DNA of 32,987 nucleotides from Oscillospiraceae bacterium (GTDB lineage Bacteria > Bacillota > Clostridia > Oscillospirales > Acutalibacteraceae): contig SVPU01000017.1 in the NCBI GenBank assembly GCA_015065685.1, forward strand, positions 1-32,987. The letters are read 5' to 3'. The notes under the pieces were generated by a model. That model saw nothing but the letters and a program-made list of their open reading frames with translations, was not told the DNA's origin and did not search any database. Of the stretch, positions 10,489-32,987 are shown one piece after another (the stretch's first letter is position 1; each line of letters begins with the position of its first letter). Made by a program: the position numbers and the translations under genes.

Positions 10489-10517
10489 TTGTAAAGCAAA
10501 TTGATGAATGTTAAAAT
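10489..10517 (+). promoter_or_regulatory. Promoter of the GRE1 operon
   Basis: TTGTAA (10489-10494) and TAAAAT (10512-10517) are spaced by 17 bases and read into GRE1. The weak -35 suits an activator-dependent promoter. The ribosome binding site AAAGGAGG follows at 10532-10539. Confidence 0.65.
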
Positions 10518-10548
10518 GAACTCAAATAATAAAAGGAGGCTTCCTATT

Positions 10549-12795
10549 ATGACACATAACACCTTAAGAGAAGAACTCAAATCGTTTTATTATTACAAAT
10601 CGGACGATACTTCACATGAGTTCTTTAAAAAATGTATGCCCGAAATTGATAAACTCTACAAAGAGGGTATGAACCCCTATCAGATGAAGATGCTTCAGTA
10701 TGAAGTTATTGCCGATATGTTTGAGCCTGTTGTTTTTGCAAATTCACCTTTTTATCATGAAACAGGTACTATTGTAGGCCGTAGTGATGGTTCACGTAGT
10801 TCAAGGGGTGATTTTCATCCCGGCGGATGGACATATTTTAAGAACGAACACCTTTTTATCGACCAAGACCCTGAACTTTGGAAATTAAGATGCCGCCAAG
10901 GCGATGAAGGTTTATATTTGATTTGCGGACCGTATAACGATGTTGGTCAGCACTATGCGCTTGATAACCGTCCTATATTAAAGGGTGGACTTTCTTCAAT
11001 TTATGAGGCTGCTAAAAAAGGTCTTGAAACCGCAAAGGAAGGCGATGAAACCGATTTCCTTAATGCAGTGTGCAGCGGTATGTTAAACCTTAAAAAAGTA
11101 GCTCAGAAGTTCTCTGATAAAGCGAAAGAAATGCTAGAAACCGCTAAGACCGATGATGAAGTAAAGTATTTAACAATGCTTTATGAAACTGCTAAGAGAG
11201 TGCCTTGGGAAAAACCTGAGACCTTCTATGAAGCACTTTGTACGCTCGCATTTATGAGAAGAGGTCTCGGTACATTGGATGGTGTTGGTCCTAACAGCTT
11301 CGGTAGACTTGATGTGGACCTTTATCCCTTCTATAAAAATGATATTGAAAACGGGACTCTCACAAAAGAAGAGGCTTATGACCTTATTACCAGATTTCTT
11401 ATCGTTTGGGATACTCACTATGACCACGATATGAAGATGGTTGGTTATTCTGACCACGAGCTTGAAAACACCTATGTTCTCGGCGGTTGTGATTTAGAAG
11501 GCAAACCCGTTTATAATGAACTTACAAAAATGTTCCTTCAGGCTACAAGAGAAGAAAAAATTATCTACCCTAAAATTAAATGCCGTTTCTCTAAAAATTC
11601 ACCTAAAGAATATTTAGACGAAGTTAATAAGGCTATAATTTCAGGTACAAGTACCGTTCTTTTGCAGAATGACGATGGAACAATCCCTGCTCTTATAAAA
11701 GCTGGTAGAACTATTGAAGAAGCACGCGATTATCTTACCACGGGTTGTTGGGATGTTACCACTCAGGGAACTGAAAAATATGACCACGGTTCTTACATTA
11801 ACATTTTAAAGCCTTTTGAATATGCGGTTCATAAGGATTATGAAAAAATGGAATATGTTGGTCTTGACCTTAAAACCTTTGATGATGCAAAGGATTTTGA
11901 AGACCTTTATGCAAGAGCTTTCGAAGATGTTATCTCGGTGTTCAAAGAAAGAATTCGTGTTTCAACTCTTGGCGGTCAAATTCGTGATAAGGTAGAACCA
12001 CTTCCGATTTTCTCAAGTACAATGCAAGGCTGTATTGAAAAGAAGAGAGACTATTGCAACGGCGGTATGAAATATTATGATGATTTCTTGCTTTGCATTG
12101 GTTTCCCTGAAGTTGTGGACTCATTACTTGCTATTAAAACACTTTGTTTTGACCAAAAGAAATACACTGTAGAAGAGTTCCTTGAAGCAGTTAGAAACAA
12201 CTGGGAAGGCCATGAGGATATGCAGATAGAAGCAAAGCATTGTCCCGGTTGGGGTGATGGCAGCGAAGAATCAAACACTTTGGCTCGTCGCCTTAATGAT
12301 GATATTCATAATTACCTAAGTGGTATGACCGGTACTTATGGTGGAAGAGTTCATCTTGGACATATCACATATACCGAGATTCGTTGGTGGGGTGAAAAAA
12401 CTCGTGCTACACCTAACGGAAGAAAGAACGGCGAATACATTTCTCAGGGCCTTACTCCTTCAAGACTCAAGAAGATTCCGTCTGTAACAAGTGTTGTAAA
12501 CAGTTTTGCTGCTTTAGATAATGAATCAATGGGTGCTAACAGCGTTGTTAATATCATTATGTCTTCAAATAATATGACACTCGATATTTGCGAGGCGTTT
12601 TTACGTGCCTGCGCAGGCACTGCAATGCAATCATTGCAGCTTAACTGCACCACAAAGGAACAGCTTCTTGATGCACAGAAGCATCCTGAAAAGTATCCCG
12701 ACCTTATTGTGCGTGTTTGCGGTTTCTCTGCAAAATTCACAAGTCTTTCACCCGATTGGCAGAAAGAGGTTCTTTCAAGAAACTTCTACGAATAA
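10549..12795 (+). CDS. Glycyl radical enzyme of unknown substrate (GRE1, GCWD active site)
   Basis: The 748-residue protein has both hallmarks of the pyruvate formate-lyase/diol dehydratase superfamily: an active-site Cys in TTGCWDVTTQG (C400) and a C-terminal radical loop RVCGFSAKF with the radical-bearing Gly at G725. In known dehydratases and lyases the motif is GCxE, with the Glu acting as base; here it is Asp402. It is not PFL, which has adjacent Cys-Cys. The open frame begins at 10501, but the ATG at 10549 has AAAGGAGG 9 bases before it and the promoter -10 lies inside the longer frame, so I start there. It heads an operon with a serine hydrolase and a matching activase, next to a divergent AraC regulator. 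Substrate is unknown; no shell proteins are seen, so it probably acts in the cytosol. Confidence 0.93.
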   Translation: MTHNTLREELKSFYYYKSDDTSHEFFKKCMPEIDKLYKEGMNPYQMKMLQYEVIADMFEPVVFANSPFYHETGTIVGRSDGSRSSRGDFHPGGWTYFKNEHLFIDQDPELWKLRCRQGDEGLYLICGPYNDVGQHYALDNRPILKGGLSSIYEAAKKGLETAKEGDETDFLNAVCSGMLNLKKVAQKFSDKAKEMLETAKTDDEVKYLTMLYETAKRVPWEKPETFYEALCTLAFMRRGLGTLDGVGPNSFGRLDVDLYPFYKNDIENGTLTKEEAYDLITRFLIVWDTHYDHDMKMVGYSDHELENTYVLGGCDLEGKPVYNELTKMFLQATREEKIIYPKIKCRFSKNSPKEYLDEVNKAIISGTSTVLLQNDDGTIPALIKAGRTIEEARDYLTTGCWDVTTQGTEKYDHGSYINILKPFEYAVHKDYEKMEYVGLDLKTFDDAKDFEDLYARAFEDVISVFKERIRVSTLGGQIRDKVEPLPIFSSTMQGCIEKKRDYCNGGMKYYDDFLLCIGFPEVVDSLLAIKTLCFDQKKYTVEEFLEAVRNNWEGHEDMQIEAKHCPGWGDGSEESNTLARRLNDDIHNYLSGMTGTYGGRVHLGHITYTEIRWWGEKTRATPNGRKNGEYISQGLTPSRLKKIPSVTSVVNSFAALDNESMGANSVVNIIMSSNNMTLDICEAFLRACAGTAMQSLQLNCTTKEQLLDAQKHPEKYPDLIVRVCGFSAKFTSLSPDWQKEVLSRNFYE

Positions 12796-12823
12796 TCGGG
12801 TACCTCAATAAAGGGAAGAAAGT

Positions 12824-13960
12824 ATGTTTGAATATATAAAAAAATATTGCGATTCTTTTTTAGAACTCGGTGTGCCGGGTTTTGATTTGGCGGTTTATAA
12901 AAGCGGAGAATGCGCTCTCCGCTATATGAACGGCTATAGCGATATTGAAAACAAGATTAAAGTAAGCGGCAAGGAAAGATATGATATCTATTCTTGCTCA
13001 AAACCTATCACCTGTGTTGCGGCGTTGCAATTATGGGAAAAAGGGTTGTTTTCGCTTGAGGATAAACTGTCGGACTATATGCCTGAATTCGAGAAGATGA
13101 CTGTTATTACAGAAAACGGCGTAAAACCGGCAGAAAATCCGATTAGAATTAAGCATTTGTTTGAAATGACAGCCGGATTTTCTTACGACCATTATTCACC
13201 GTGGCTTAAAAAGGCGGTGGCTGAAACAAACGGCAGATGTCCCACCCGAGAGGTTATGAAATATCTTGCTAAAGAACCGTTGCAGTTTGAACCGGGGGAC
13301 AGATGGAGATATAGCCTTTGCCACGATGTTTTAGCGGCGTTTATTGAGGTTATAACAGGTGAAAAATTTGAGAAGTATGTTAAAATAAATATTTTCGATC
13401 CGCTCGGAATGGAAAATTCAACCTTTATGCTGCCTGATAGTGAGCTGACAACCATTTCTCCTCAATATAGGTTTAAAAATGGCAAAGCGGTCAATGTGGG
13501 CAGGAAGATTGATACTCATAAAATGGGTAGCGAATATGCCAGCGGTGGCGCAGGTTGTATTTCCACGGTGGATGATTATGTCAAATTTTTGGAGGGTGTA
13601 CGCACCTATAAATTGCTCAAACCCGAAACTGTTAAATTGATGATGACCGACCGCTTGAGCGACCACCAAAAGCGAACCTATACTGATTTAGACCTTACAG
13701 GCTATAGCTATGGTTTGGGTGTGCGCTGCCCTAAGGGAGACAAACGCTATACCGATTTTGGTTGGGCGGGTACAGCTTGTTCTTATTTAGCGATTGATAT
13801 GGAAAATGAAATCAGCGTGTTTTTAGGCGTTCATTTACTCAGCTCACCGGCTCAGAATTTCATTTCAATGCTTGGCCGTTTTGCGAGAGCAGAATTGGTT
13901 GATGGTGAATTTGAAAGTATAAGAAAAGACTTAAAAGAAATATTTAATTACACTTATTGA
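12824..13960 (+). CDS. Serine hydrolase, class C beta-lactamase/esterase family
   Basis: The 378-residue protein has the beta-lactamase-like serine hydrolase fold. The catalytic SxxK is S57-CS-K60, the second motif is YSLCHD with Y163, and a DFGWAGTACSYLAID segment takes the place of the KTG strand. This pattern is closer to EstB-like esterases and DD-peptidase relatives than to true resistance enzymes. No signal peptide or membrane segment is visible, so it is probably cytosolic. It lies 28 bases after GRE1 and 14 bases before the activase, inside the same operon. That placement suggests it cleaves an ester or amide to feed or clear the GRE1 substrate, which is inference. AAGGGAAG precedes its ATG. 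Confidence 0.88.
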   Translation: MFEYIKKYCDSFLELGVPGFDLAVYKSGECALRYMNGYSDIENKIKVSGKERYDIYSCSKPITCVAALQLWEKGLFSLEDKLSDYMPEFEKMTVITENGVKPAENPIRIKHLFEMTAGFSYDHYSPWLKKAVAETNGRCPTREVMKYLAKEPLQFEPGDRWRYSLCHDVLAAFIEVITGEKFEKYVKINIFDPLGMENSTFMLPDSELTTISPQYRFKNGKAVNVGRKIDTHKMGSEYASGGAGCISTVDDYVKFLEGVRTYKLLKPETVKLMMTDRLSDHQKRTYTDLDLTGYSYGLGVRCPKGDKRYTDFGWAGTACSYLAIDMENEISVFLGVHLLSSPAQNFISMLGRFARAELVDGEFESIRKDLKEIFNYTY

Positions 13961-13974
13961 TTGGGGGAATAAAA

Positions 13975-14811
13975 ATGCTTACAGCAACTATTTTTGATAT
14001 CCAGCGCAACTCTTTTGTTGATGGCCCAGGAATCAGAACAACAGTGTTTTTCAAAGGCTGCAACTTAAAATGTGCTTGGTGTCATAACCCCGAAAGTCAG
14101 AGCTTTGAGCCTCAAATGATGTTTTACAGGGATAAGTGTACAGGCTGCGGCAAGTGTTTGGAAAAATGTCCAAATAAGCTTGAAAGTTGTGATTTGTGCG
14201 GCAAATGTGAAATGTATTGCCCAGCAGAAGCTCGTAAGGTGTGCGGCAAGGAATATACCGTAGACGAGGTTTTAAAAGAGGTTATAAAGGATAAGCTTTT
14301 TTATGAAAATTCGGGCGGCGGCGTAACATTTTCGGGCGGCGAATGTATGCTCAGAATAGATTTTCTTTTAGAAATTCTTAAAAAATGCAAGGAAAACGGC
14401 ATACATACCGCAGTTGATACCGCGGGGCATGTGAATTTCGAAAGGTTTGAAAAAATCTTGCCTTATACCGATATGTTTCTTTATGATTTTAAGATTTTTG
14501 ACAGCGAAAAGCACAAGACCTATGTTGGCGTTGGAAATGAATTGATTTTAGAAAATCTTAAAAAGCTTTTAGAACTCGGCGCAAAAATTCGTATTCGCAT
14601 TCCCGTTATGGCAGGAGTTAATGACAGTGTGGAAGAAATGAATCAGATAAAGGAATTTCTTTATTCACATGGAAAGCCCGACTTGGTTGAGCTTTTGCCA
14701 TATCACGCAATGGGGGAGAACAAATACAGAGCAATAGGATTGGAGCCACAAACCTTTAAAGCCCCAACAAAAGAAGAAATGAAAGTTTTAAGAGAAGTCT
14801 TTAGCGAGTAA
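13975..14811 (+). CDS. Glycyl radical enzyme activase (radical SAM), for GRE1
   Basis: The 278-residue protein is a GRE activating enzyme that uses S-adenosylmethionine to make the glycyl radical. The radical-SAM cluster motif is C29-x3-C33-x2-C36 (CNLKCAWC), followed by a ferredoxin-like insert with two four-Cys sets (C55, C58, C61, C65 and C72, C75, C78, C82), as in activases of the non-PFL type. NSGGGVTFSGGE is the SAM-binding GGE region and RIRIPVMAGVND the later strand motif. An open frame begins at 13957, overlapping the hydrolase gene, but ATG 13975 has GGGGGA at the right distance. It is the last gene of the GRE1 operon and is presumably the partner of GRE1. Confidence 0.95.
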   Translation: MLTATIFDIQRNSFVDGPGIRTTVFFKGCNLKCAWCHNPESQSFEPQMMFYRDKCTGCGKCLEKCPNKLESCDLCGKCEMYCPAEARKVCGKEYTVDEVLKEVIKDKLFYENSGGGVTFSGGECMLRIDFLLEILKKCKENGIHTAVDTAGHVNFERFEKILPYTDMFLYDFKIFDSEKHKTYVGVGNELILENLKKLLELGAKIRIRIPVMAGVNDSVEEMNQIKEFLYSHGKPDLVELLPYHAMGENKYRAIGLEPQTFKAPTKEEMKVLREVFSE

Positions 14812-22538: not shown

Positions 22539-22595
22539 CAAAATGAAAGATAATATCTATAATTTATATTTTTCTAATTAAAAGGAGTTGATTTA

Positions 22596-24776
22596 ATGTT
22601 TGAATTTAAAACAAAATTAGAGCCTTTCGGCCGCGGATTTGTTAACTGCGAAAGTGAAAACAAAGCAGTAAAAATCAGTGCGGGTCTTATAAATTGCGCA
22701 AAGGAACTCCCACTAAACATTGACCTTAACAACGGTATGCCCGAGTTTAATATTTCTTCTCAGGCGTTTTCCTTTTCATTCGGCAACAGCGTGACCTGTA
22801 ATTCGGGACTACTCAATGAAATTATAGATAAAACCCCCGAAGAAAAAGATGAGTTACTGCTCATAAAGGAAAAAATGTGGCCATATCTCAAACACGAAAC
22901 AGAACTTTGGGACTGCTTTACAAAGCGCCAGAGCGAGCACGAAAAAGCAATGGATATCTGGGCAGGATATTGGATGGGTCACTGTGTTCCCAAATATGCC
23001 GATATCGCTATCCACGGAACAGACGGTTACAGAGCAAAGGTTGAAAAATACAGAAAAATCAACCCAGGCAAAGATGATTTTTATGATTCCATAAATCTGC
23101 TTATGGATGCCATTGATATTTTCGGTGAGCGTTTTTACCACCTTGCAGATGAAATGCTTAAAACGGAAACCGAAGAAAAGCATATCGAAATTCTTGAGAC
23201 CATCAAGCACACCTTCTCCCACGCTCCGAAGAAACCTTGTAAAGACTTTGCCGAGGCGGTTATTGTGTTCTTTATGATGTTCCAGATTGACGGATGCGAT
23301 TCTCCCGGACATTTCGACCAGTATATGTATGATTTCTGGAAAGTAACTGACCAAACACAAGCCAAAAAATACTTGAGATACCTTTGGGATGCATTCTTTA
23401 AACTCGGCAATATTATGAACCTTTGTATTTCAGGCTCGGATGAAAACTGGAATGATATTTCAAACGACCTCACCTATGCAATTCTTGAAGTTACCGCCGA
23501 AACTGCATACAATACCCCTAACCTTACAATGCGTTGCCACCGCAACACACCCGATAAGTTGTTGCAAGCGGCACACAAGTCCATTGGAACAGGCTGTGGT
23601 TTGCCCGTTCTTTACAATGATGAGGCAGTGTGTCCCGCCCTTGAGAGTCTGGGAATTCCAAGTGCAGATGCTCACCGTTATGTTATGAACGGATGTAATC
23701 AGATTGATATTCAGGGCAAGAGCCATATGGGTCTTGAAGATGGTGAAGTATGCCTTGCAAAATCCATTGAATATACCCTTTTCAATGGTTATTCGCCTTA
23801 TATGAAAAAGGAATTGGCTCTGAAAACCGGTGACCCTACTGAGTTTAAAACCTACGATGAATTTTATGCGGCAGTAATCAAGCAAATTGATTATCTTATT
23901 GATACTGCAACAAGCAAATCAAATTCTGCACAGAAACTGTTTGCAAAAGAGGCGCCAAACCCCTTCCGCTCAGCCTTTATCGAGGGTTGTATCGAAAAGG
24001 GTCTTGACTATAAGCAGGGCGGTCCGCTTTATGGCCACGGACAGATTTTAGCAGAGGCCATTGCCGAAACGGTTGACTCTCTTGCGGTTATAAAGAAATA
24101 TGTTTATGAAGAAAAGCGTTTCACAATGGCAGAACTCGTAGATGCCCTTTCAAAAGACTTCGAGGGTTACGAAGATTTGTATCATTTCCTTAAAAATAAT
24201 GACCTCAAGTTTGGCAACGATATTGATTATGTTGATGAAATTGCCAAAGGTGTTGTTGACCATTACAACAGTTACCTCAAAACTATTCCTACATATCGCG
24301 GCGGTTATTTCACAGGCGGTTGTTCGCCTTTTAACCGTTCTGCACGATATGCCAAAACTATCGGCGCATTACCCAACGGCAAAAAGAAGGACGATTATGT
24401 TATTGGCGATTCAATCGGCTGTACACCGGGCAAGGATGTCAACGGCCCCACTGCGCTAATGAATTCTTGCCTTAAATTTGACCATACCCTTCCCGCAAGC
24501 GGATTTATCCTGAATCTCAAATTTGACAAGGAAATGTTTAACACAGATGCGGGCAAAGACGGTTTTGCCGCCATTTGCCGTTCTTATTTCGGACAAAAAG
24601 GTCAACAACTCACAATCACCGTTGTATCTCTCGAAGATTTGCTTGATGCTAAGGTTAACCCGCAAAATCATCAAAATCTTATTGTTCGTATCGGTGGCTA
24701 CAGTGCTCGTTTTATCGACCTTACCCCCGAACTTCAGGACAATGTTATAGCAAGAACAAGCCACACTACAATGTAA
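22596..24776 (+). CDS. Glycyl radical enzyme of unknown substrate (GRE2, GCNQ active site)
   Basis: The 726-residue protein has the C-terminal radical loop RIGGYSARFIDL with the radical Gly at G701 and an active-site Cys C367 in VMNGCNQIDIQGKSH. The residue two after the Cys is Gln369, not the Glu of dehydratase-type GREs, and there is no second Cys beside it as in PFL. It is shorter than most GREs (about 760-850) and its N-terminus (MFEFKTKLEPFGRGF) is not a typical one. AAAGGAG precedes the ATG. It has its own promoter and a terminator after it, with no activase of its own, so it likely relies on the activase behind GRE3. It is a close paralogue of GRE3, same length, roughly 80-85% identical by eye. 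Confidence 0.92.
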   Translation: MFEFKTKLEPFGRGFVNCESENKAVKISAGLINCAKELPLNIDLNNGMPEFNISSQAFSFSFGNSVTCNSGLLNEIIDKTPEEKDELLLIKEKMWPYLKHETELWDCFTKRQSEHEKAMDIWAGYWMGHCVPKYADIAIHGTDGYRAKVEKYRKINPGKDDFYDSINLLMDAIDIFGERFYHLADEMLKTETEEKHIEILETIKHTFSHAPKKPCKDFAEAVIVFFMMFQIDGCDSPGHFDQYMYDFWKVTDQTQAKKYLRYLWDAFFKLGNIMNLCISGSDENWNDISNDLTYAILEVTAETAYNTPNLTMRCHRNTPDKLLQAAHKSIGTGCGLPVLYNDEAVCPALESLGIPSADAHRYVMNGCNQIDIQGKSHMGLEDGEVCLAKSIEYTLFNGYSPYMKKELALKTGDPTEFKTYDEFYAAVIKQIDYLIDTATSKSNSAQKLFAKEAPNPFRSAFIEGCIEKGLDYKQGGPLYGHGQILAEAIAETVDSLAVIKKYVYEEKRFTMAELVDALSKDFEGYEDLYHFLKNNDLKFGNDIDYVDEIAKGVVDHYNSYLKTIPTYRGGYFTGGCSPFNRSARYAKTIGALPNGKKKDDYVIGDSIGCTPGKDVNGPTALMNSCLKFDHTLPASGFILNLKFDKEMFNTDAGKDGFAAICRSYFGQKGQQLTITVVSLEDLLDAKVNPQNHQNLIVRIGGYSARFIDLTPELQDNVIARTSHTTM

Positions 24777-24875
24777 AATCTTCTGCAAAAGCATATTTTA
24801 GCATTGGTTTTTAGGTTGGATTTTTATAACTATATTTACCTTTTTCCAAAATTTTAAAACTGTATTATCTTCTTT

Positions 24876-24905
24876 TGAAAGCAGCCCTGTTTAAGGGCTG
24901 TTTTT
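24876..24905 (+). terminator. Terminator between GRE2 and GRE3
   Basis: CAGCCCT (24882-24888) pairs with AGGGCTG (24894-24900) around a 5-base loop, followed by TTTTT. The GRE3 -35 starts three bases later, so terminator and next promoter abut. Confidence 0.85.
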
Positions 24906-24907
24906 AA

Positions 24908-24936
24908 TTGACTTTTATTTTCCGTTGTGTTAAACT
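24908..24936 (+). promoter_or_regulatory. Promoter of GRE3
   Basis: TTGACT (24908-24913) and TAAACT (24931-24936) are spaced by 17 bases, the same layout as the GRE2 promoter, followed by CAAAGTGAA. Confidence 0.78.
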
Positions 24937-25018
24937 CAAAGTGAACAATGATAACTTTTTTATTGTTCAAAAACTGAAATATTCAGTATCACCTTTTCAG
25001 GAAAAGGAGTCGATTTTA

Positions 25019-27199
25019 ATGTATGAATTCAAGACAAAATTGGAACCCTTTGGTCGCGGATTTGTAAATTGCGAGAGCGAAAACAAAGCAGTAAAAATCG
25101 GCGCAGGTCTTATAAACTGTGCAAAGGAGCTTCCTATTGATATTACCCTTGATAACGGTATGGTAGAAATCAATGTGGCTTCGCAGGCTATTTCATTCTT
25201 ATATTCACACAGCGTGAATTGCCGTTCTGAAGTGTTGAATAAAATTATAGAAAACAACCCTGAAGACAAAGAAGAATTATTGCTTATTAAAGAAAAGGTT
25301 TGGCCTTATCTCAAGCACGAAACTTGTCTTTGGGACTGTTTCACACAAGAACAAAAAGAGCACGAAGCCGCAAGAGACATCTGGGCAGGATATTGGATGG
25401 GCCACTGTGTTCCCAAATATGCCGATATAGCCATCTATGGAACAGACGGTTATAGAGAAAAGGTTGAAAAGTATAGAAAACTCAACCCCGGCAAAGATGA
25501 TTTCTATGATTCTTTAATTATGTTATTAGAGGCGATTGATATTTTCGGCGAGCGTTTTTATCATCTTGCAGATGAAAAGCTCAAAACCGCAACAGAAAAA
25601 GAACATATCGAGATGCTAAATAATATCAAACGCACCTTCTCCCACGCTCCAAAGAAACCTTGTAAAGACTTCGTTGAGGCAGTTATAGTCTTCTTTATGA
25701 TGTTCCGTATAGAAGGCGGAGATGCTCCCGGACATTTCGACCAATATATGTATGATTTCTGGAAGGTAACCGATGAAAAAGAGGCTAAGAAGTACCTTAG
25801 ATACTTGTGGGTAGCTTTCCACAAACTCGGCGGAACAATGAACCTTTGTATTTCGGGCTCAGATGAAAATTGGAATGACCTTTCAAACGACCTCACCTAT
25901 GCAATTCTCGAAGTTACTGCCGAAACGGCATACAGAACACCCAACCTTACAATGCGTGTTCATAGAAACACTCCCGAAAAACTCTTACGCGCCGCACACA
26001 AAGCAATTGCAACGGGTTGCGGTTTGCCCGTAATTTATAATGATGAGGCTGTTTGCCCTGCCCTTGAGAGTTTGGAAATCCCAACCGATGATGCTCACCG
26101 TTATGTTATGAACGGTTGTAATCAGATTGATATTCAGGGCAAAAGCCATATGGGTCTAGAAGATGGCGAAGTTTTCCTTGCAAAAGCGGTTGAGTATGTT
26201 TTATTTAATGGCTACTCACCTTACAGACAAAAGGATTTATCAATTAAGACGGGTGACCCCACCGAGTTTAAAACCTATGATGAATTTTATGCGGCAGTTA
26301 TTAAGCAACTCGACCACTTAATTGATACTGCAACTGCAAAATCAAATGCTGCACAGGAGTTGTTTGCAAAGGAAGCGCCCAACCCGTTCCGTTCGGCATT
26401 TATTGAGGGTTGTATCGAAAAGGGACTTGACTATAAGCAGGGCGGTCCTATTTACGGTCATGGACAGATTTTAGCGCAAGGTATTGCCGAAACTGCCGAT
26501 TCTCTAGCAGTTATAAAGAAATATGTTTATGAGGAAAAGCGTTTCACAATGGCAGAACTCATTGATGCTCTTTCAAAAGACTTTGAGGGTTATGAAGAAT
26601 TGCATCATTTTCTTAAAAATAATGACCTCAAGTTTGGTAACGACATTGATTATGTTGATGAAATTGCCAAAGGCGTTGTTGACCATTTCAATAGTTATTT
26701 AAGAACTATCCCCACACGCCGTGGCGGTTATTTCACAGGCGGTTGTTCGCCCTTTAACAGAACCGCCAACTATGCAAAAACTCTTGGTGCTTTCCCCAAC
26801 GGCAAGAGAAAAGATGAGTATATCATCGCCGATTCAATTGGCTCAACACCGGGTAAGGATGTTAACGGTCCTACGGCACTTATGAATTCTTGCCTTAAGT
26901 TTGACCATACGCTTCCTGCAAGTGGATTCATTCTTAATCTTAAATTTGATAAGCAGATGTTTAATTCCGAAGCAGGTGAAGATGGATTCGTAGCGCTTTG
27001 CCGTTCATATTTCGGTCAAAAAGGTCAGCAACTTTCAATAACCGTTGTTTCCCTTGAAGATTTGCTTGATGCGAAGGTTAATCCGCAAAATCATAAAAAT
27101 TTGATTGTTCGTATCGGCGGTTACAGTGCGCGATTTATTGACCTTTCCCCCGAACTTCAGGACAACGTTATTGCAAGAACAAGCCATATTACAATGTAA
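25019..27199 (+). CDS. Glycyl radical enzyme of unknown substrate (GRE3, GCNQ active site)
   Basis: This 726-residue protein is a tandem paralogue of GRE2. It keeps the active-site segment VMNGCNQIDIQGKSH (C367, Q369) and the radical loop RIGGYSARFIDL (G701), and the C-terminus differs by only one or two residues. Differences cluster in residues 40-120 and in scattered places that could line a pocket, such as 306 (N to R), 314 (C to V) and 387 (C to F; about position 386). An open frame begins at 24908, but that covers the promoter; ATG 25019 has AAAGGAG and matches the GRE2 start, so I use it. It is followed after 23 bases by an activase gene, forming a two-gene operon. Confidence 0.92.
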   Translation: MYEFKTKLEPFGRGFVNCESENKAVKIGAGLINCAKELPIDITLDNGMVEINVASQAISFLYSHSVNCRSEVLNKIIENNPEDKEELLLIKEKVWPYLKHETCLWDCFTQEQKEHEAARDIWAGYWMGHCVPKYADIAIYGTDGYREKVEKYRKLNPGKDDFYDSLIMLLEAIDIFGERFYHLADEKLKTATEKEHIEMLNNIKRTFSHAPKKPCKDFVEAVIVFFMMFRIEGGDAPGHFDQYMYDFWKVTDEKEAKKYLRYLWVAFHKLGGTMNLCISGSDENWNDLSNDLTYAILEVTAETAYRTPNLTMRVHRNTPEKLLRAAHKAIATGCGLPVIYNDEAVCPALESLEIPTDDAHRYVMNGCNQIDIQGKSHMGLEDGEVFLAKAVEYVLFNGYSPYRQKDLSIKTGDPTEFKTYDEFYAAVIKQLDHLIDTATAKSNAAQELFAKEAPNPFRSAFIEGCIEKGLDYKQGGPIYGHGQILAQGIAETADSLAVIKKYVYEEKRFTMAELIDALSKDFEGYEELHHFLKNNDLKFGNDIDYVDEIAKGVVDHFNSYLRTIPTRRGGYFTGGCSPFNRTANYAKTLGAFPNGKRKDEYIIADSIGSTPGKDVNGPTALMNSCLKFDHTLPASGFILNLKFDKQMFNSEAGEDGFVALCRSYFGQKGQQLSITVVSLEDLLDAKVNPQNHKNLIVRIGGYSARFIDLSPELQDNVIARTSHITM

Positions 27200-27222: not shown

Positions 27223-28122
27223 ATGAATTTATCTTATTTCAACATTCAAAAATTCTGTATTCACGACGGTCCGGGTATCAGAACCACTGTTTTCTTAAAG
27301 GGTTGTCCCTTAAAGTGCAAATGGTGCCATAACCCCGAATCACAGGAAACAGGGCCCGAACTTTTATTTATAAAAGATAGGTGTACCTCTTGTGGCAGGT
27401 GCCTCGGTTTTTGTGCGGCGAGAAAAATGTCCCCAAGCGGTGAAATCATTTATGACCGTTCCCGTTGTGTTTTGTGCGGTAACTGTATCCAAAGATGCTT
27501 TAATTTCGCTAATGAAATAGTAGGTAAAACCGCCTCTGTTGATGAAATTTTGGCAGAAGTTGTAAAAGACAAACACTTTTACGAGTCTTCGGGTGGAGGT
27601 ATGACCGTATCGGGCGGTGAACCTTCGGCGCAACCCGATGCCGTTTTGGAACTTATCAGAAAAGCAAAGGAAAATGGCGTTGATTCTGCAATAGAAACCT
27701 GCGGTAGCGGAAGCCATGAATTTTACAAGCAGGCAAACGAACTCGACTGCATATTCCTTTTCGATATAAAGGGAATTGATTCCAAGAAACATTTAGAAAA
27801 CACAGGAGTTCCTACCGACAAGATTCATAAAAATCTTGAATACCTACTTGAGAACAACGCGAAGGTTATTATCAGAATTCCCTTAATTCCCACAATGAAT
27901 GATTCTGAAATGGACTTGGAATTATTAAAAGAATTTCTGTATAATATCAAAGACAAAATTATGTATGCCGAGATTATGCCATACCATAATTTAGGTGTTG
28001 AAAAATCACGAAGGCTCGGTAAATCACAAAAGGATGATATTCCAAACGGAAAGCCTTTTGCAAAGAAATGGCAAGAAATTTTATCAAAATCAGGTGCTAC
28101 AGTTAAAGTTTCAGGCGAATAA
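27223..28122 (+). CDS. Glycyl radical enzyme activase (radical SAM), for GRE3 and probably GRE2
   Basis: The 299-residue protein is a GRE activating enzyme. The radical-SAM motif is C28-x3-C32-x2-C35 (CPLKCKWC), and the ferredoxin-like insert has C54, C57, C60, C64 and C82, C85, C88, C92 for two extra clusters. SSGGGMTVSGGEPSAQ and IIRIPLIPTMND are the SAM-binding and barrel motifs. It lies 23 bases behind GRE3; the ribosome binding site (AGAGAG) is weak, which may keep its level below that of the enzyme. Since GRE2 has no activase and a near-identical radical loop, one activase may serve both. It is clearly different from the GRE1 activase, so each type of GRE has its own. Confidence 0.95.
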   Translation: MNLSYFNIQKFCIHDGPGIRTTVFLKGCPLKCKWCHNPESQETGPELLFIKDRCTSCGRCLGFCAARKMSPSGEIIYDRSRCVLCGNCIQRCFNFANEIVGKTASVDEILAEVVKDKHFYESSGGGMTVSGGEPSAQPDAVLELIRKAKENGVDSAIETCGSGSHEFYKQANELDCIFLFDIKGIDSKKHLENTGVPTDKIHKNLEYLLENNAKVIIRIPLIPTMNDSEMDLELLKEFLYNIKDKIMYAEIMPYHNLGVEKSRRLGKSQKDDIPNGKPFAKKWQEILSKSGATVKVSGE

Positions 28123-28221: not shown

Positions 28222-31200
28222 TTATGCTTTCTTGCGTTTTTTAGCAATAACAATTATTACGAATGTTGCACCGCCTAAAACCACAAGACCGCCAACTGCA
28301 ATAAGAACAATTGCCCAAATCGGTAAACCTGAACTTACATCGTTATCGGTATTTGCACTCTTTTCAGGTGCTTCGCGTGTTACGATAATTCTGTATGTTC
28401 TCTGGAGTCCGTCTTCAGAAACAACCTTAACTGTTACCGAGTTTCTACCAACATATTCAAGGTCGGTTTTACCTATTGTTATAGTTGCATTTTCATCTTC
28501 TGCAACTGCGATAACCTTAACCTTATCAACGCTGAACGGAACGGTTGCGGTGTATTCCTTGATTTCAGGGTCAAACTCTGGTGAAATCTTAATGCCGTCG
28601 AGTCTGAGTTCTGAAAGTCTGTTCTTAGCCTTAACAACCAGCTCGGTAGGACCGCCGGGTGTTGTCTGAGAACCGGTTGAACTTCCGCTATTTGTTCCTG
28701 TGTTAGTACCGGTATTAGTATCAGTATTTGTAGGCGGAACTTTACCGGGTGTCCAGAGATATTCTGCAGATGAGAGCAGATTTGCACCCGAAGTTGAGAA
28801 GAGTTCTGCCAACTGCAACTTAATATCACTGTATTTCTGAACTTCGCCAACCTTAAAGGTAAAGGTTATAATCTCTTTACCCTTTTCGCTGCCACTGTTC
28901 TTAGTCGTATCAGCTGCATAGAAATTAACTTCCGAAGCAGTAGTATCGTCATCAATTGACAATACCCAGTTGCCCGAAACATCAAGAGCCGCAGATACAA
29001 ATGTTAAAGCAGACTTGTTATATTTGAGTTTACCGTTTAAAGCACGGAGATTATCTTCACTTGCAAGAAGTGAAATTTCAATCTCATCACCAACTGCAAA
29101 CTTATCAGGACCTGTAAGAACGAAATCTGACTTTCCTTCTTTAGCAGCATTGGCATTAAAGTTAGTATCATAAATATTAACTTTGCCATCGTTGTTATAA
29201 TCGGCCGCTTCGAGATAAATATCATTCTCAATTACTTTTTCATAACTTAAATGCTTAATAATTGCTTCAACGTCTTTAGCATCAACAAGACCGTCGCCGT
29301 TAACATCACCCTTAATCACAATTTTAGCACGGGCGGCGATTTGCGGTCCGTTTATAAGACGGATTTCCATGCCTGTTTCTGCTAATCTGTTAAGGTCTGT
29401 AACAACCTTTTTATTTGCATCATAAATTTTGATGTATTGAGAATTTTCGAAAGAAGCAACAACATCAGAGAGTTTAGTGCCAGATGTAAATCCAAATGCG
29501 AACTCATCTTCAACGCTTATTCCTGCTTTATTGGGTTCGAATTTTTTCGGGAAATCATCCGAAACCGAATCAAGAAGTGCGCCGTCACTTGTTTTAAAGA
29601 GACGGAAGTCATCCATATAAGCAGTACCGCCGCTATCTTTCACGAAAATACCAACACGGTTGAGGTCTTTAGAGTTAAAGGTGAAACCGACTGTCTGCCA
29701 GGATTGGTCTTCAAGATAATTATTTTCGCCGAATGAATATTCCTTAATTATGGTAGGATACATTTGGTTTTCAGAAATTACATTTCCGTTAGAATCCCAA
29801 GTGCTTTCAATTCCTGCGGCATTATAGCCGTTCACAAGACCGAAACCACCATTACCTACTTTAGTGATTGCATATTTAGCAGAGAAAGTATATTCAGTGT
29901 TAGGTTCAACATCTATCCACTTGAAATAATAAATATTATGTGGATATAAAACATCGGGTTCATAGTAGAATGCTTCGCCTTGCACTGAATCGCCTGTGTC
30001 AACTATATTTAGTGATTTACCATACATGTAGTTAACAAACTTAGAACTATCAGACCAATAAGAATCAACCGCATCTTCAAAGTTAAAGTTTTCCACTAAG
30101 TTTACTCCACCGTCTTTAATTCCAAGATAGTTAGGTTCGTCGGTTATAAATTCAACACTTTTCTCTATTGTAGATAAAGGTGAGTTAGTTACAACTGTAC
30201 TCGAATATACAGGGTCCCAAACAGCAAGTGTATCTAAATAAACTGTTGCATGAGTTGCACGGAATTGTAAATAGAAGTCAGTTTGGTCGTTTGTTTTGAA
30301 TGAATATGCATTCCAGTGCCATTTATTATCATTAATTCCTAAGAATTGGAAATAATCTTGATATTGCTTCCAACTGTGGTCAGTTTTGCTTCCAACATTT
30401 TGAACGGTAAGGTAATTACCTGTTGAGCCATCAGCAATACCATAAGTAAATCTTGTAAATTCGCCATTCTTTGCATAATAGTCAACTGATTTACCCATAA
30501 AACCAAAGCAATAGGTTTTGTTGGGTTCGAGTTTTAAAGGAATAGAAATAATTTCTTCTTTAGAGCCTGCTTCTAACTTAATAGCTGAATCACTATAGTG
30601 AGACACATCTGTTCCACCGCTAACAATTTTCACACAAGAAACTCCGTCCTTATCGTTATCGGTTGCTATATAATTCATTGCATTGTTATAAGGTTCACTA
30701 CTTGTTGTGGTAAGGTCACCATTAAGCAACATTGAACTGCCATCAACAGGAGCACCAAGGAACATTTCAGCCAAGTTTTCATAAACAGGACCAACAACCC
30801 AAGCACGATTTACCTCCATTGCAATTGTTGCGGGTTCTTCAGTTGGTTCAAGAATGATATTATCTATTAAAACATCGCAACCTATTGTTGACTGAAGCAT
30901 AAAATAAGCTGATTTATATGCAGTTGCAACATTGAAAACTACTGAATAATGAGTCCAATCAGAAGCACTCGGTACTGATTGTGTAATAACTGCCTTATGG
31001 GTAGAAAGAGTTGTTTCCTCTTTACCAATGCCCCAGAAAATTTTACCTTCGGGTATTGTCCCTTTATAATCAAAATCTAATTTATAATTTCCTTCTGTCA
31101 ATTTAACTTCTTGAGAAAAAACTTTATGGAAACTTGATTTAATATTAAGTGCTGCACCGCCATCTTTATCGGCAGTTGTATCAACCTTGAAGAAATCTTC

Positions 31201-32987
31201 ATCACCTGACCAGAACCGATTTCCATCATTAAACTCGCTATTATAAACTATTGAGTTTCCAGTACCAACCTTTTCAAATGTAACATTATCTATATATATT
31301 GTTTTTCCCGCTTTTGCACCAAATAAAGTGAACACAACTAAAATATATTCATTGTCTCCACTGGCAACAATACCGCCAACATTTACCCATTCATTAAGTA
31401 TGTCTATAGCACTCATATAACTATAAATAGTATTCTTTGATTGCGCTATTACATCACCATTGGCTTCTTCTACGGAAGTTGCATCAAAAAATAAACCACC
31501 AATACCGTTACTTATAATATCAGCATTAACTTTGTACTGTGTATTCTTTTCAACCTTTACATACTGATATACTCTTGTTACACTTTCTGCAATACCATTA
31601 ATTACAATAGCCTTTGAACCTTCACTAGCAGTTGTTGTAGTAACCGGTGCAGGTGAACCCTTTACACCCCAACCACTTAATCCGTTTTCAAAACTAGGAT
31701 TTACAACAAAATCCGAATCGGAGTTTGAAGCAACCTTTTCTAAAACAACATTATCTACATATAATACTTTTCCATCTTTTGAGCCAAAGAATGTAAATAC
31801 AACTAAGATATATTCATTGTCCCCGCTATAAACTTCACCGCCAACATTAACCCATTCGTTGAGTGTTGCTATAGCACTCATATAACTGTAAATAGTATTT
31901 TGTGATTGTGATATAACTTCACCGTTAGCTTCCGTTACTGGAGTTGCATCAAAATATAATCCACCAATACCGTTACTTATAATATCAGCACTAACTTTGT
32001 ATGTGGTATTCTTTTCAACCTTTACATACTGATATATTCTTGTTGTACTACCTGCAATACCATTAATTACGATAGCTTTTGAACCATCACTAGCAGTTGA
32101 TTCAGTAACCGCAGGTGCTGGCGAGCCCATTGTTGACCAATTGCTTAAACCACCTTCAAAACTGGAATTGAAAATGAGATTAGAAGAAGGTTCATTCTCT
32201 TCAACAATAACATTATCTACATATAAAACTTTACCTGCTTTTGAACCATAGAATGTAAATACAACTAGAATGTATTCATTTTCTCCACTATAAACTTCAC
32301 CACCAACATTAACCCATTCATTAAGTGTTGCTATTGCACTCATGTAGCTGAAAATATGATTCTGTGATTGTGATATAACTTCACCGTTAGCTTCCGTTAC
32401 TGGAGTTGCATCAAAATATAATCCACCAATACCATTACTTATAATATCAGCGCTAACCTTGTATGTAGTATTCTTTTCAACTTTCACATACTGATATACT
32501 CTTGTTGTACTACCTGCAGTGCCGTTAATTATGATTGATTTTGAACCCTCACTAGCAGTTGATGTTGTAGCAGCCGGTGCAGGTGAACCCATTGTTTTCC
32601 AATTGCTTAAACCACCTTCAAAGCCAGGATTTAAAACAAGATTTTTCGAAGTATTTGAAGAAGCAACTTTTTCTAAAACAACATTATCTACATGTAATAC
32701 TTTTCCATCTTTTGAACCAAAGAATGTAAATACAACTAAGATATATTCATTGTCCCCGCTATAAACTTCACCGCCAACATTAACCCATTCGTTGAGTGTT
32801 GCTATAGCACTCATATAACTGTAAATAGTATTCTTTGATTGTGATGTGACTTGACCGCTAGCTTCTGCTACAGAAGTTGCATCAAAAAACAAACCGCCAA
32901 TACCGTTACTTATAATATCGGCACTGACTTTGTATGTGGCGTTCTTTTCAACCTTTACATACTGATATACTCTTGTTGTGCTACCTG
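28222..32987 (-). CDS. Giant repeat-containing cell-surface protein with dockerin, cohesin-like and cadherin-like modules (5' part outside window)
   Basis: The frame is open to the window end, so only the last 1587 residues are seen; signal peptide and any catalytic domain are missing. From the N-terminal side: four carbohydrate-binding-like beta-sandwich repeats of about 155 residues (LNPGFEGGLSNW ... VYVDN-type), a divergent fifth one (about 30840-31260), two more jelly-roll-like modules with NFNFEDAVDSYW, a short Ig-like module, a type I dockerin with two calcium loops (DVNGDGLVDAKD and DYNNDGKVNIYD, 29160-29316), a cohesin-like domain (about 28765-29130), a Thr/Asn/Gly linker (28675-28745), a cadherin-like beta-sandwich (about 28375-28630), and a C-terminal membrane helix with a KKRKKA tail (28225-28320). 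No LPXTG is seen. It is probably a membrane-anchored polysaccharide-binding or scaffold protein. Confidence 0.88.
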   Translation of the reverse strand, partial: GSTTRVYQYVKVEKNATYKVSADIISNGIGGLFFDATSVAEASGQVTSQSKNTIYSYMSAIATLNEWVNVGGEVYSGDNEYILVVFTFFGSKDGKVLHVDNVVLEKVASSNTSKNLVLNPGFEGGLSNWKTMGSPAPAATTSTASEGSKSIIINGTAGSTTRVYQYVKVEKNTTYKVSADIISNGIGGLYFDATPVTEANGEVISQSQNHIFSYMSAIATLNEWVNVGGEVYSGENEYILVVFTFYGSKAGKVLYVDNVIVEENEPSSNLIFNSSFEGGLSNWSTMGSPAPAVTESTASDGSKAIVINGIAGSTTRIYQYVKVEKNTTYKVSADIISNGIGGLYFDATPVTEANGEVISQSQNTIYSYMSAIATLNEWVNVGGEVYSGDNEYILVVFTFFGSKDGKVLYVDNVVLEKVASNSDSDFVVNPSFENGLSGWGVKGSPAPVTTTTASEGSKAIVINGIAESVTRVYQYVKVEKNTQYKVNADIISNGIGGLFFDATSVEEANGDVIAQSKNTIYSYMSAIDILNEWVNVGGIVASGDNEYILVVFTLFGAKAGKTIYIDNVTFEKVGTGNSIVYNSEFNDGNRFWSGDEDFFKVDTTADKDGGAALNIKSSFHKVFSQEVKLTEGNYKLDFDYKGTIPEGKIFWGIGKEETTLSTHKAVITQSVPSASDWTHYSVVFNVATAYKSAYFMLQSTIGCDVLIDNIILEPTEEPATIAMEVNRAWVVGPVYENLAEMFLGAPVDGSSMLLNGDLTTTSSEPYNNAMNYIATDNDKDGVSCVKIVSGGTDVSHYSDSAIKLEAGSKEEIISIPLKLEPNKTYCFGFMGKSVDYYAKNGEFTRFTYGIADGSTGNYLTVQNVGSKTDHSWKQYQDYFQFLGINDNKWHWNAYSFKTNDQTDFYLQFRATHATVYLDTLAVWDPVYSSTVVTNSPLSTIEKSVEFITDEPNYLGIKDGGVNLVENFNFEDAVDSYWSDSSKFVNYMYGKSLNIVDTGDSVQGEAFYYEPDVLYPHNIYYFKWIDVEPNTEYTFSAKYAITKVGNGGFGLVNGYNAAGIESTWDSNGNVISENQMYPTIIKEYSFGENNYLEDQSWQTVGFTFNSKDLNRVGIFVKDSGGTAYMDDFRLFKTSDGALLDSVSDDFPKKFEPNKAGISVEDEFAFGFTSGTKLSDVVASFENSQYIKIYDANKKVVTDLNRLAETGMEIRLINGPQIAARAKIVIKGDVNGDGLVDAKDVEAIIKHLSYEKVIENDIYLEAADYNNDGKVNIYDTNFNANAAKEGKSDFVLTGPDKFAVGDEIEISLLASEDNLRALNGKLKYNKSALTFVSAALDVSGNWVLSIDDDTTASEVNFYAADTTKNSGSEKGKEIITFTFKVGEVQKYSDIKLQLAELFSTSGANLLSSAEYLWTPGKVPPTNTDTNTGTNTGTNSGSSTGSQTTPGGPTELVVKAKNRLSELRLDGIKISPEFDPEIKEYTATVPFSVDKVKVIAVAEDENATITIGKTDLEYVGRNSVTVKVVSEDGLQRTYRIIVTREAPEKSANTDNDVSSGLPIWAIVLIAVGGLVVLGGATFVIIVIAKKRKKA
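31262..32987 (-). repeat. Tandem repeats of about 465 bp within the surface protein gene
   Basis: Three full units (about 31262-31726, 31727-32189 and 32190-32660) and one cut by the window edge (32661-32987) are in frame. Their periods measured at the NEWVNVGG codons are 471, 462 and 465 bases. DNA identity is high, with long shared runs, notably between the unit at 31727-32189 and its neighbours, so they are recent or kept alike by recombination. Confidence 0.93.

Follow-up and report, generated by a model that had tools for sequence, protein, structure and literature searches.

Two adjacent genes, here called GRE2 and GRE3, on a 32,987-nucleotide contig of an Oscillospiraceae bacterium (SVPU01000017.1, the whole of which is referred to as the window) encode oxygen-sensitive glycyl radical enzymes (GREs) in which a glutamine occupies the place of the glutamate found two residues after the thiyl cysteine in the GRE eliminases (the CxE position). 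Their domains, C367, G701, and their cognate activase place both proteins in the GRE superfamily, and together with their relatives they form a discrete group, named the GCNQ family after its cysteine motif, which is uncharacterised as far as this analysis shows. The features of the two genes and of the adjacent activase gene are as follows.

22583..22588, + strand: Shine-Dalgarno-like AGGAGT upstream of GRE2 (sequence)
22596..24776, + strand: GRE2, glycyl radical enzyme of the GCNQ family, 726 aa (PF02901 355 bits, PF01228 78.6 bits)
23298..23300, + strand: codon of GRE2 D235, candidate acid/base directly before SPG (Asp in 75/75 family rows)
23694..23702, + strand: codons of GRE2 C367-N368-Q369, thiyl cysteine and the glutamine replacing the CxE glutamate (residue numbering, alignment to CxE enzymes)
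24696..24698, + strand: codon of the GRE2 radical glycine, G701 (residue numbering; Gly in 99/99 family rows)
25005..25010, + strand: Shine-Dalgarno-like AGGAGT upstream of GRE3 (sequence)
25019..27199, + strand: GRE3, second GRE copy, 726 aa (PF02901 367 bits in the search of the own genome)
25721..25723, + strand: codon of GRE3 D235 (alignment of family rows)
26117..26125, + strand: codons of GRE3 C367-N368-Q369 (residue numbering)
27119..27121, + strand: codon of the GRE3 radical glycine, G701 (residue numbering)
27223..28122, + strand: radical-SAM GRE activase with ferredoxin-type Cys clusters, 299 aa (TIGR02494 317 bits)

Both GRE reading frames are uninterrupted and of full length, and each begins with an ATG behind an AGGAGT; for GRE3, the ATG at 25019 was preferred over the TTG at 24908 in the mechanical list of open reading frames. 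In GRE2, PF02901 and PF01228 both scored above their cutoffs, corresponding to a PFL-like barrel and a Gly-radical domain, and the activase exceeded the TIGR02494 cutoff of 174 and also matched Radical_SAM and Fer4. The initial annotation had reported the C367-N-Q369 motif and G701 in both proteins, and these positions were confirmed in the two translated reading frames. GRE2 and GRE3 are 84% identical, with a dN of 0.092 and a dS of 1.11 (dN/dS of about 0.08, Nei-Gojobori count), and are therefore under purifying selection.

Position of the glutamine in the Cys loop

Q369 is placed opposite the CxE glutamate in all five PDB chains that were aligned to GRE2 with HMMER (9rco, 5i2a, 1r8w, 6vxc, and 8iof), and three chains aligned to another GRE (8yjo, 9ht9, and 9r0v) also contain CxE; these are the eight chains in which the Cys loop was inspected, out of 34 distinct chains that matched. 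The GCNQ-family profile likewise sets Q369 opposite the glutamate in GREs of the order. It had been considered that the true active-site cysteine might instead be the one in TGCGLPV, but this residue, C334, is kept in only two of seven aligned members, both of them window copies, and was rejected. The traits of pyruvate formate-lyase (PFL) are also absent, in that the motif is GCN instead of Cys-Cys and the score to TIGR01255 is 77 bits against a cutoff of 994.2.

Extent and conservation of the GCNQ family

A wide scan of 84,980 species genomes yielded 202 stretches, 179 of which encode some relative at E 1e-3, and the best 80 gave 77 loci. This set is biased, since one of the two retrieval patterns contained the GCNQ motif; three loci that matched only the motif-free pattern, and two array members that matched neither, contain GCNQ as well. 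The motif is present in all 99 family rows above 850 bits and in four more loci overlooked in gene calling, and it is therefore not an effect of chance or sequencing. Searches made independently of the motif gave the same picture. Within the taxonomic family of the bacterium (150 genomes), the best matches outside its own genome are five proteins with 43-49% identity, all with GCNQ, followed by a protein with 32% identity and a GCVE motif (L013). In the order (147 genomes including the own, searched with a 75-member profile), six other genomes match at 986-1104 bits, again all with GCNQ, and the next-best match, at about half the score (508 bits), has GCVE. Only one of the 398 genomes in a phylum-wide sample, the own one, passed E 1e-110, and no relatives were found in the viral contigs searched. 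Among the genomes scanned, the family was found only in assembled genomes of Clostridia: all 77 loci are from metagenome-assembled Clostridia, for which the genome records give a ruminant gut site in 40 cases and chicken in one. No work on a GCNQ family was found among the titles and abstract openings listed in searches of published papers, one of which was aimed at the motif itself.

The residues N365, G366, C367, N368, Q369, D371, S376, H377, G379, L380, G383, and G701 are invariant in all 99 rows above 850 bits. Five of these (N365, N368, D371, H377, and L380) are each present in at most one of 33 other GREs. The invariance of C367, G701, and their surroundings, combined with the purifying selection on GRE2 and GRE3, suggests that the enzymes work. 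It is very improbable that they represent inactive or helper copies, such as pseudo-enzymes or radical spare parts. A residue that is essential in relatives has been lost and tandem copies occur, as would be expected of such proteins, but neither the invariant Cys and Gly nor the dN/dS value fits this explanation, and 58 of the 74 loci in which the gene is complete have a single copy, some of them near contig ends. The family also differs from the aminoacyl radical enzymes (AAREs; PMC11528403), in which a residue other than glycine stands at the radical position, as G701 is kept in 99 of 99 rows.

Phylogenetic placement

A rapidly built tree of 48 GREs grouped all 14 GCNQ rows in one clade with an SH-aLRT support of 100. 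In a quick tree of 107 rows, the seven GCNQ rows again formed one clade (100), which was nested within the CxE enzymes and had a GCQE protein from an uncultured relative, L174, as its sister (95). The glutamine is therefore derived from a glutamate. L174 resembles the GCNQ enzymes in its position near the clade, in D235, and in the motif GKSxxGxEDG, and differs from them in that it keeps the glutamate. Another protein near the clade with D235 is L124, also from an uncultured relative, which has GCSQ instead and scores 483 bits, as CxE enzymes do. L124 was joined with the GCNQ clade at 88 (unstarred) in the tree of 48 GREs, and a GCNQ and GCSQ clade was not rejected for the 107 rows (AU p 0.65). 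The trees differ in this respect, and the two motifs may share one origin of the glutamine; this rare protein either marks a separate line of GREs with Gln or is sister to the GCNQ enzymes.

The window pair falls below every NCBIfam cutoff. The scores to TIGR01774, the PFL2-3 subfamily, were 352.2 and 349.5 bits against a cutoff of 678.2, and the best score to the HypD, CutC, HpsG, and PRK09983 models (cutoffs 1000-1109) was 341 bits, to the HypD model (cutoff 1100). Proteins from the same taxonomic family do exceed the cutoffs for HypD (L015, 1313 bits) and CutC (L018, 1660 bits), and these two fall outside the GCNQ clade in the trees. The proposal in the initial annotation of a GRE family with undescribed chemistry thus gains from the discrete clade and from the lack of any NCBIfam cutoff reached by the pair, and is tempered by a precedent for the glutamine and by the loss of the glutamate in other GREs, both described below.

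The Cys-loop glutamate in other GREs

Exchange of this glutamate for glutamine inactivates HypD (E436Q; PMC7077986) and IslA (E470Q; PMC8473560), and in indoleacetate decarboxylase (IAD) it abolishes skatole formation, yet raises the radical content (E502Q; PMC9248008). The standard Glu-assisted mechanism is therefore unlikely for the GCNQ enzymes, in which the glutamate is replaced in every member examined and Q369 is unable to act as a base. The earlier expectation that they do not catalyse a standard base-assisted reaction is borne out to this extent, but it does not extend to the rest of the pocket, where other acids are invariant and could still allow an elimination. PMC9248008 also states that IAD E502Q was designed “to mimic PAD”, which implies that phenylacetate decarboxylase (PAD, PhdB), a characterised GRE, naturally has a glutamine there. 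A glutamine at the CxE position thus has a precedent in PhdB, going by that statement, which lowers the claim of novelty; the earlier view that no characterised GRE has this motif went too far.

PhdB would resemble the GCNQ enzymes in having a glutamine at the position of IAD Glu502, as a sentence in PMC9248008 indicates. Like PAD, for which a mechanism of H abstraction is proposed (PMC9248008), the GCNQ enzymes might be radical decarboxylases that abstract a hydrogen alpha to a carboxylate and then release CO2, the glutamate being replaced by glutamine. We consider this quite unlikely. There was no aromatic-acid gene in 20 neighbours scanned singly or among the 25 most frequent of the 130 Pfam families near the GCNQ genes, and the models of indoleacetate decarboxylase (cutoff 1100) and hydroxyphenylacetate decarboxylase (cutoff 1150) gave GRE2 203 and 128 bits, respectively. 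The aligned set of pocket residues is polar, and PhdB differs from the enzymes proposed here in its aromatic substrate.

The Cys loop could be read in 114 GREs other than PFLs, 13 of them GCNQ rows. Two positions after the cysteine, 89 of these have Glu, 14 Gln, 5 Trp, 3 Gly, and 3 Asp. The own genome (1.48 Mb in 24 contigs, 91% complete) contains six PF02901 genes with the cysteine motifs CC (a PFL), GCNQ (twice), GCWD, GCQW, and GCWE. The GCWD protein, GRE1 (764 aa), is a third GRE in the window, where it is encoded in the stretch 10501-14811, ahead of a serine hydrolase of the beta-lactamase family and its own activase. Its clade contains GCWD (L200) and GCWG (L155 and L179) next to a GCWE protein (L006), so that the CxE glutamate has been lost here too. 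A long-branched clade with GCQW, GCNW, or GCHW has Trp for Glu and a radical loop that reads KVTGYT or RVTGFT; it consists of L005, from contig C8 of the own genome, L061, L157, L183, and L209. A further protein, L144, has neither an acid nor an amide two residues after the cysteine (GCAG) and contains a GVSGF radical loop; in the tree it lies next to L017, a GCVE protein.

Candidate pocket residues

The pocket columns were counted from alignments with the PDB chains. D235, present in 75 of 75 family rows, is located just before SPG, two columns after D278 of HypD and beside a gap of three residues. It was found in only one of 33 other GREs, the GCSQ protein L124, and in the wider set all 14 rows with Gln have it, against 8 of the 89 rows with Glu, and so do 4 of the 5 rows with Trp. 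The glycerol dehydratase pocket residues H164, D447, and Y640 are matched by H129 (75/75), E381 (74/75), and S577 (75/75), respectively. The polar and invariant, or nearly invariant, character of H129, D235, S577, and E381 fits a polyhydroxylated substrate, as far as can be judged from the alignments.

The retained His and acid opposite H164 and D447 would also be in line with an ordinary dehydratase for glycerol, propanediol, or another common diol, in which Gln is tolerated because the substrate needs no deprotonation. This is improbable. Aligned with 9rco and with 5i2a, a diol dehydratase, GRE2 shows a three-residue gap at the HSI stretch, which holds H281 and S282 of glycerol dehydratase; in the alignment with 1r8w itself, the gap is placed elsewhere. 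The GCNQ clade is also distant from the diol-type CxE enzymes, and the exchange of Glu for Gln was lethal in both HypD (PMC7077986) and IslA (PMC8473560).

It is somewhat unlikely, but deserves weight, that the family carries out a reaction that neither needs proton transfer at the Cys loop nor is an elimination, such as the epimerisation or isomerisation of a sugar by a radical route, or the cleavage or formation of a C-C bond. The glutamine is invariant exactly where it kills three different GREs when introduced, and such a reaction would agree with the five family-invariant residues that are rare in other GREs and with the failure of the pair to reach any NCBIfam cutoff. On the other hand, the nearest relatives are CxE enzymes, and no second cysteine could be placed in the pocket. 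C576, kept in 70 of 75 rows, was considered as a second active-site cysteine for epimerisation and found unlikely, as the strand alternation relative to T645 of HypD and Y640 of glycerol dehydratase indicates that it should face away from the pocket.

Gene neighbourhood

The gene 5' of the GRE pair encodes a penicillin-binding protein. In the 3' flank, a gene on the minus strand (28222-32892) encodes a protein of 1556 aa in which three CBM_4_9 stretches are combined with a dockerin and a cadherin-like domain. This small genome may thus have a polysaccharide system resembling a cellulosome. Across the loci, we compared a near set of 88 co-directional genes with a far set of 86 genes, in each case for the 25 commonest Pfam families (out of 130 and 110, respectively). 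The near set contains aldo/keto reductase (4), MORN repeat (4), beta-propeller (4), FAD oxidoreductase (3), and BNR propeller (3) genes, and two each of short-chain dehydrogenase (SDR), Gfo/Idh, FGGY kinase, GH28, and others, whereas ABC transporter (5), AAA (3), and Gfo/Idh (2) are among the commonest in the far set. A GH4 gene precedes the array in L101, and a GH95 gene is located near the gene in L039. These neighbours point weakly to sugar or polyol metabolism. In L071, L085, L104, and L115, beta-propeller proteins of one cluster, with Cytochrom_D1-like matches, are encoded directly 5' of the GCNQ gene, with one gene in between in L085, and in L042, L044, and L045 a BNR/sialidase-like protein is encoded directly 5' of the GCNQ gene or array.

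Proposed reaction and comparison with known systems

We tentatively propose that GRE2 and GRE3 are active C-O lyases of a previously undescribed GCNQ family, whose substrate would resemble a sugar or polyol and in which the proton transfer would be relocated to other invariant residues. Following the general GRE cycle, and judging from the invariant residues, the radical-SAM activase would generate the radical on G701, from which it would pass to C367, and the C367 thiyl would abstract a hydrogen atom from the substrate. Q369 and N368 would only hold the substrate through hydrogen bonds, while proton transfer could be taken over by D235, E381, and H129, and perhaps by D371 or H377. Cleavage of a C-O bond in a polyol, sugar, or sugar derivative would then yield a carbonyl product that may be handled by a reductase.

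Several observations weigh against this proposal. Since the exchange of Glu for Gln was lethal in all three GREs tested (PMC7077986, PMC8473560, and PMC9248008), an elimination requires a relocated base. As a strict substitute for the lost glutamate, D235 is weakened by its presence in CxE and CxW rows. The alignment at this column is not stable, with Gly for L061 in one run and Asp in another, and all pocket positions derive from sequence alignment. Many GCNQ genes are solitary or located beside housekeeping-like genes, with part of the neighbours annotated. Aldo/keto reductases make up only 4 of 88 near genes, with at most one among the 86 far genes, where they fall outside the 25 commonest families, and all four are found in one subclade of six, while Gfo/Idh is equally common far off (2/86).

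The CxE eliminases, such as glycerol and propanediol dehydratases, CutC, HypD, IslA, and HpsG, share with the GCNQ enzymes the PFL-like and Gly-radical domains, the thiyl Cys, the radical Gly loop, and a ferredoxin-type activase. They differ in having Glu rather than Gln, and the GCNQ enzymes are shorter (726 aa) and form a clade of their own. PflD and YbiW of E. coli are reported (JACS, 2024) to be lyases of 1,5-anhydrohexitol 6-phosphates. They are GREs with a sugar-type substrate and in this resemble the role proposed for the GCNQ enzymes; PflD differs in having GCVE, and GRE2 scored 271 bits to PRK09983, the PflD model, against a cutoff of 1109.

The CxE glutamate is counted among the shared features of GRE eliminase chemistry, and a whole clade in uncultured Clostridia with Gln in every member examined is a natural test of its purpose. 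The clade also provides a defined set of orphan enzymes to screen for substrates, and any reaction it performs may belong to the fermentation of plant matter in herbivore guts.

Tandem arrays

At least two adjacent GCNQ copies are present in 16 of the 74 loci that have the complete gene, counting partial copies at contig ends, and in 30 of the 74 an activase gene comes next. The largest arrays have six (L042), five (L044), and four (L101) copies, and copies within one array are 56-84% identical. Four copy pairs from L042 and L044 group across the two genomes in a FastTree phylogeny, three with a support of 100 and one with 92, so that much of the array predates the split of these genomes, while two other L042 copies pair with each other. 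Arrays occur on several separate branches of the tree, and such recurrent duplication in tandem points to a series of enzymes acting on related substrates. More speculatively, and on balance doubtfully, the family may represent a new reaction type without an acid/base in the Cys loop, directed at compounds freed from plant polymers, which Clostridia of herbivore guts would have diversified by repeated tandem duplication into up to six retained paralogues with graded substrate choice. Some other small genomes are rich in GREs in general, with 26 (G686), 16 (G627), and 15 (G132) matches to PF02901, some of them partial or split, compared to six in the own genome.

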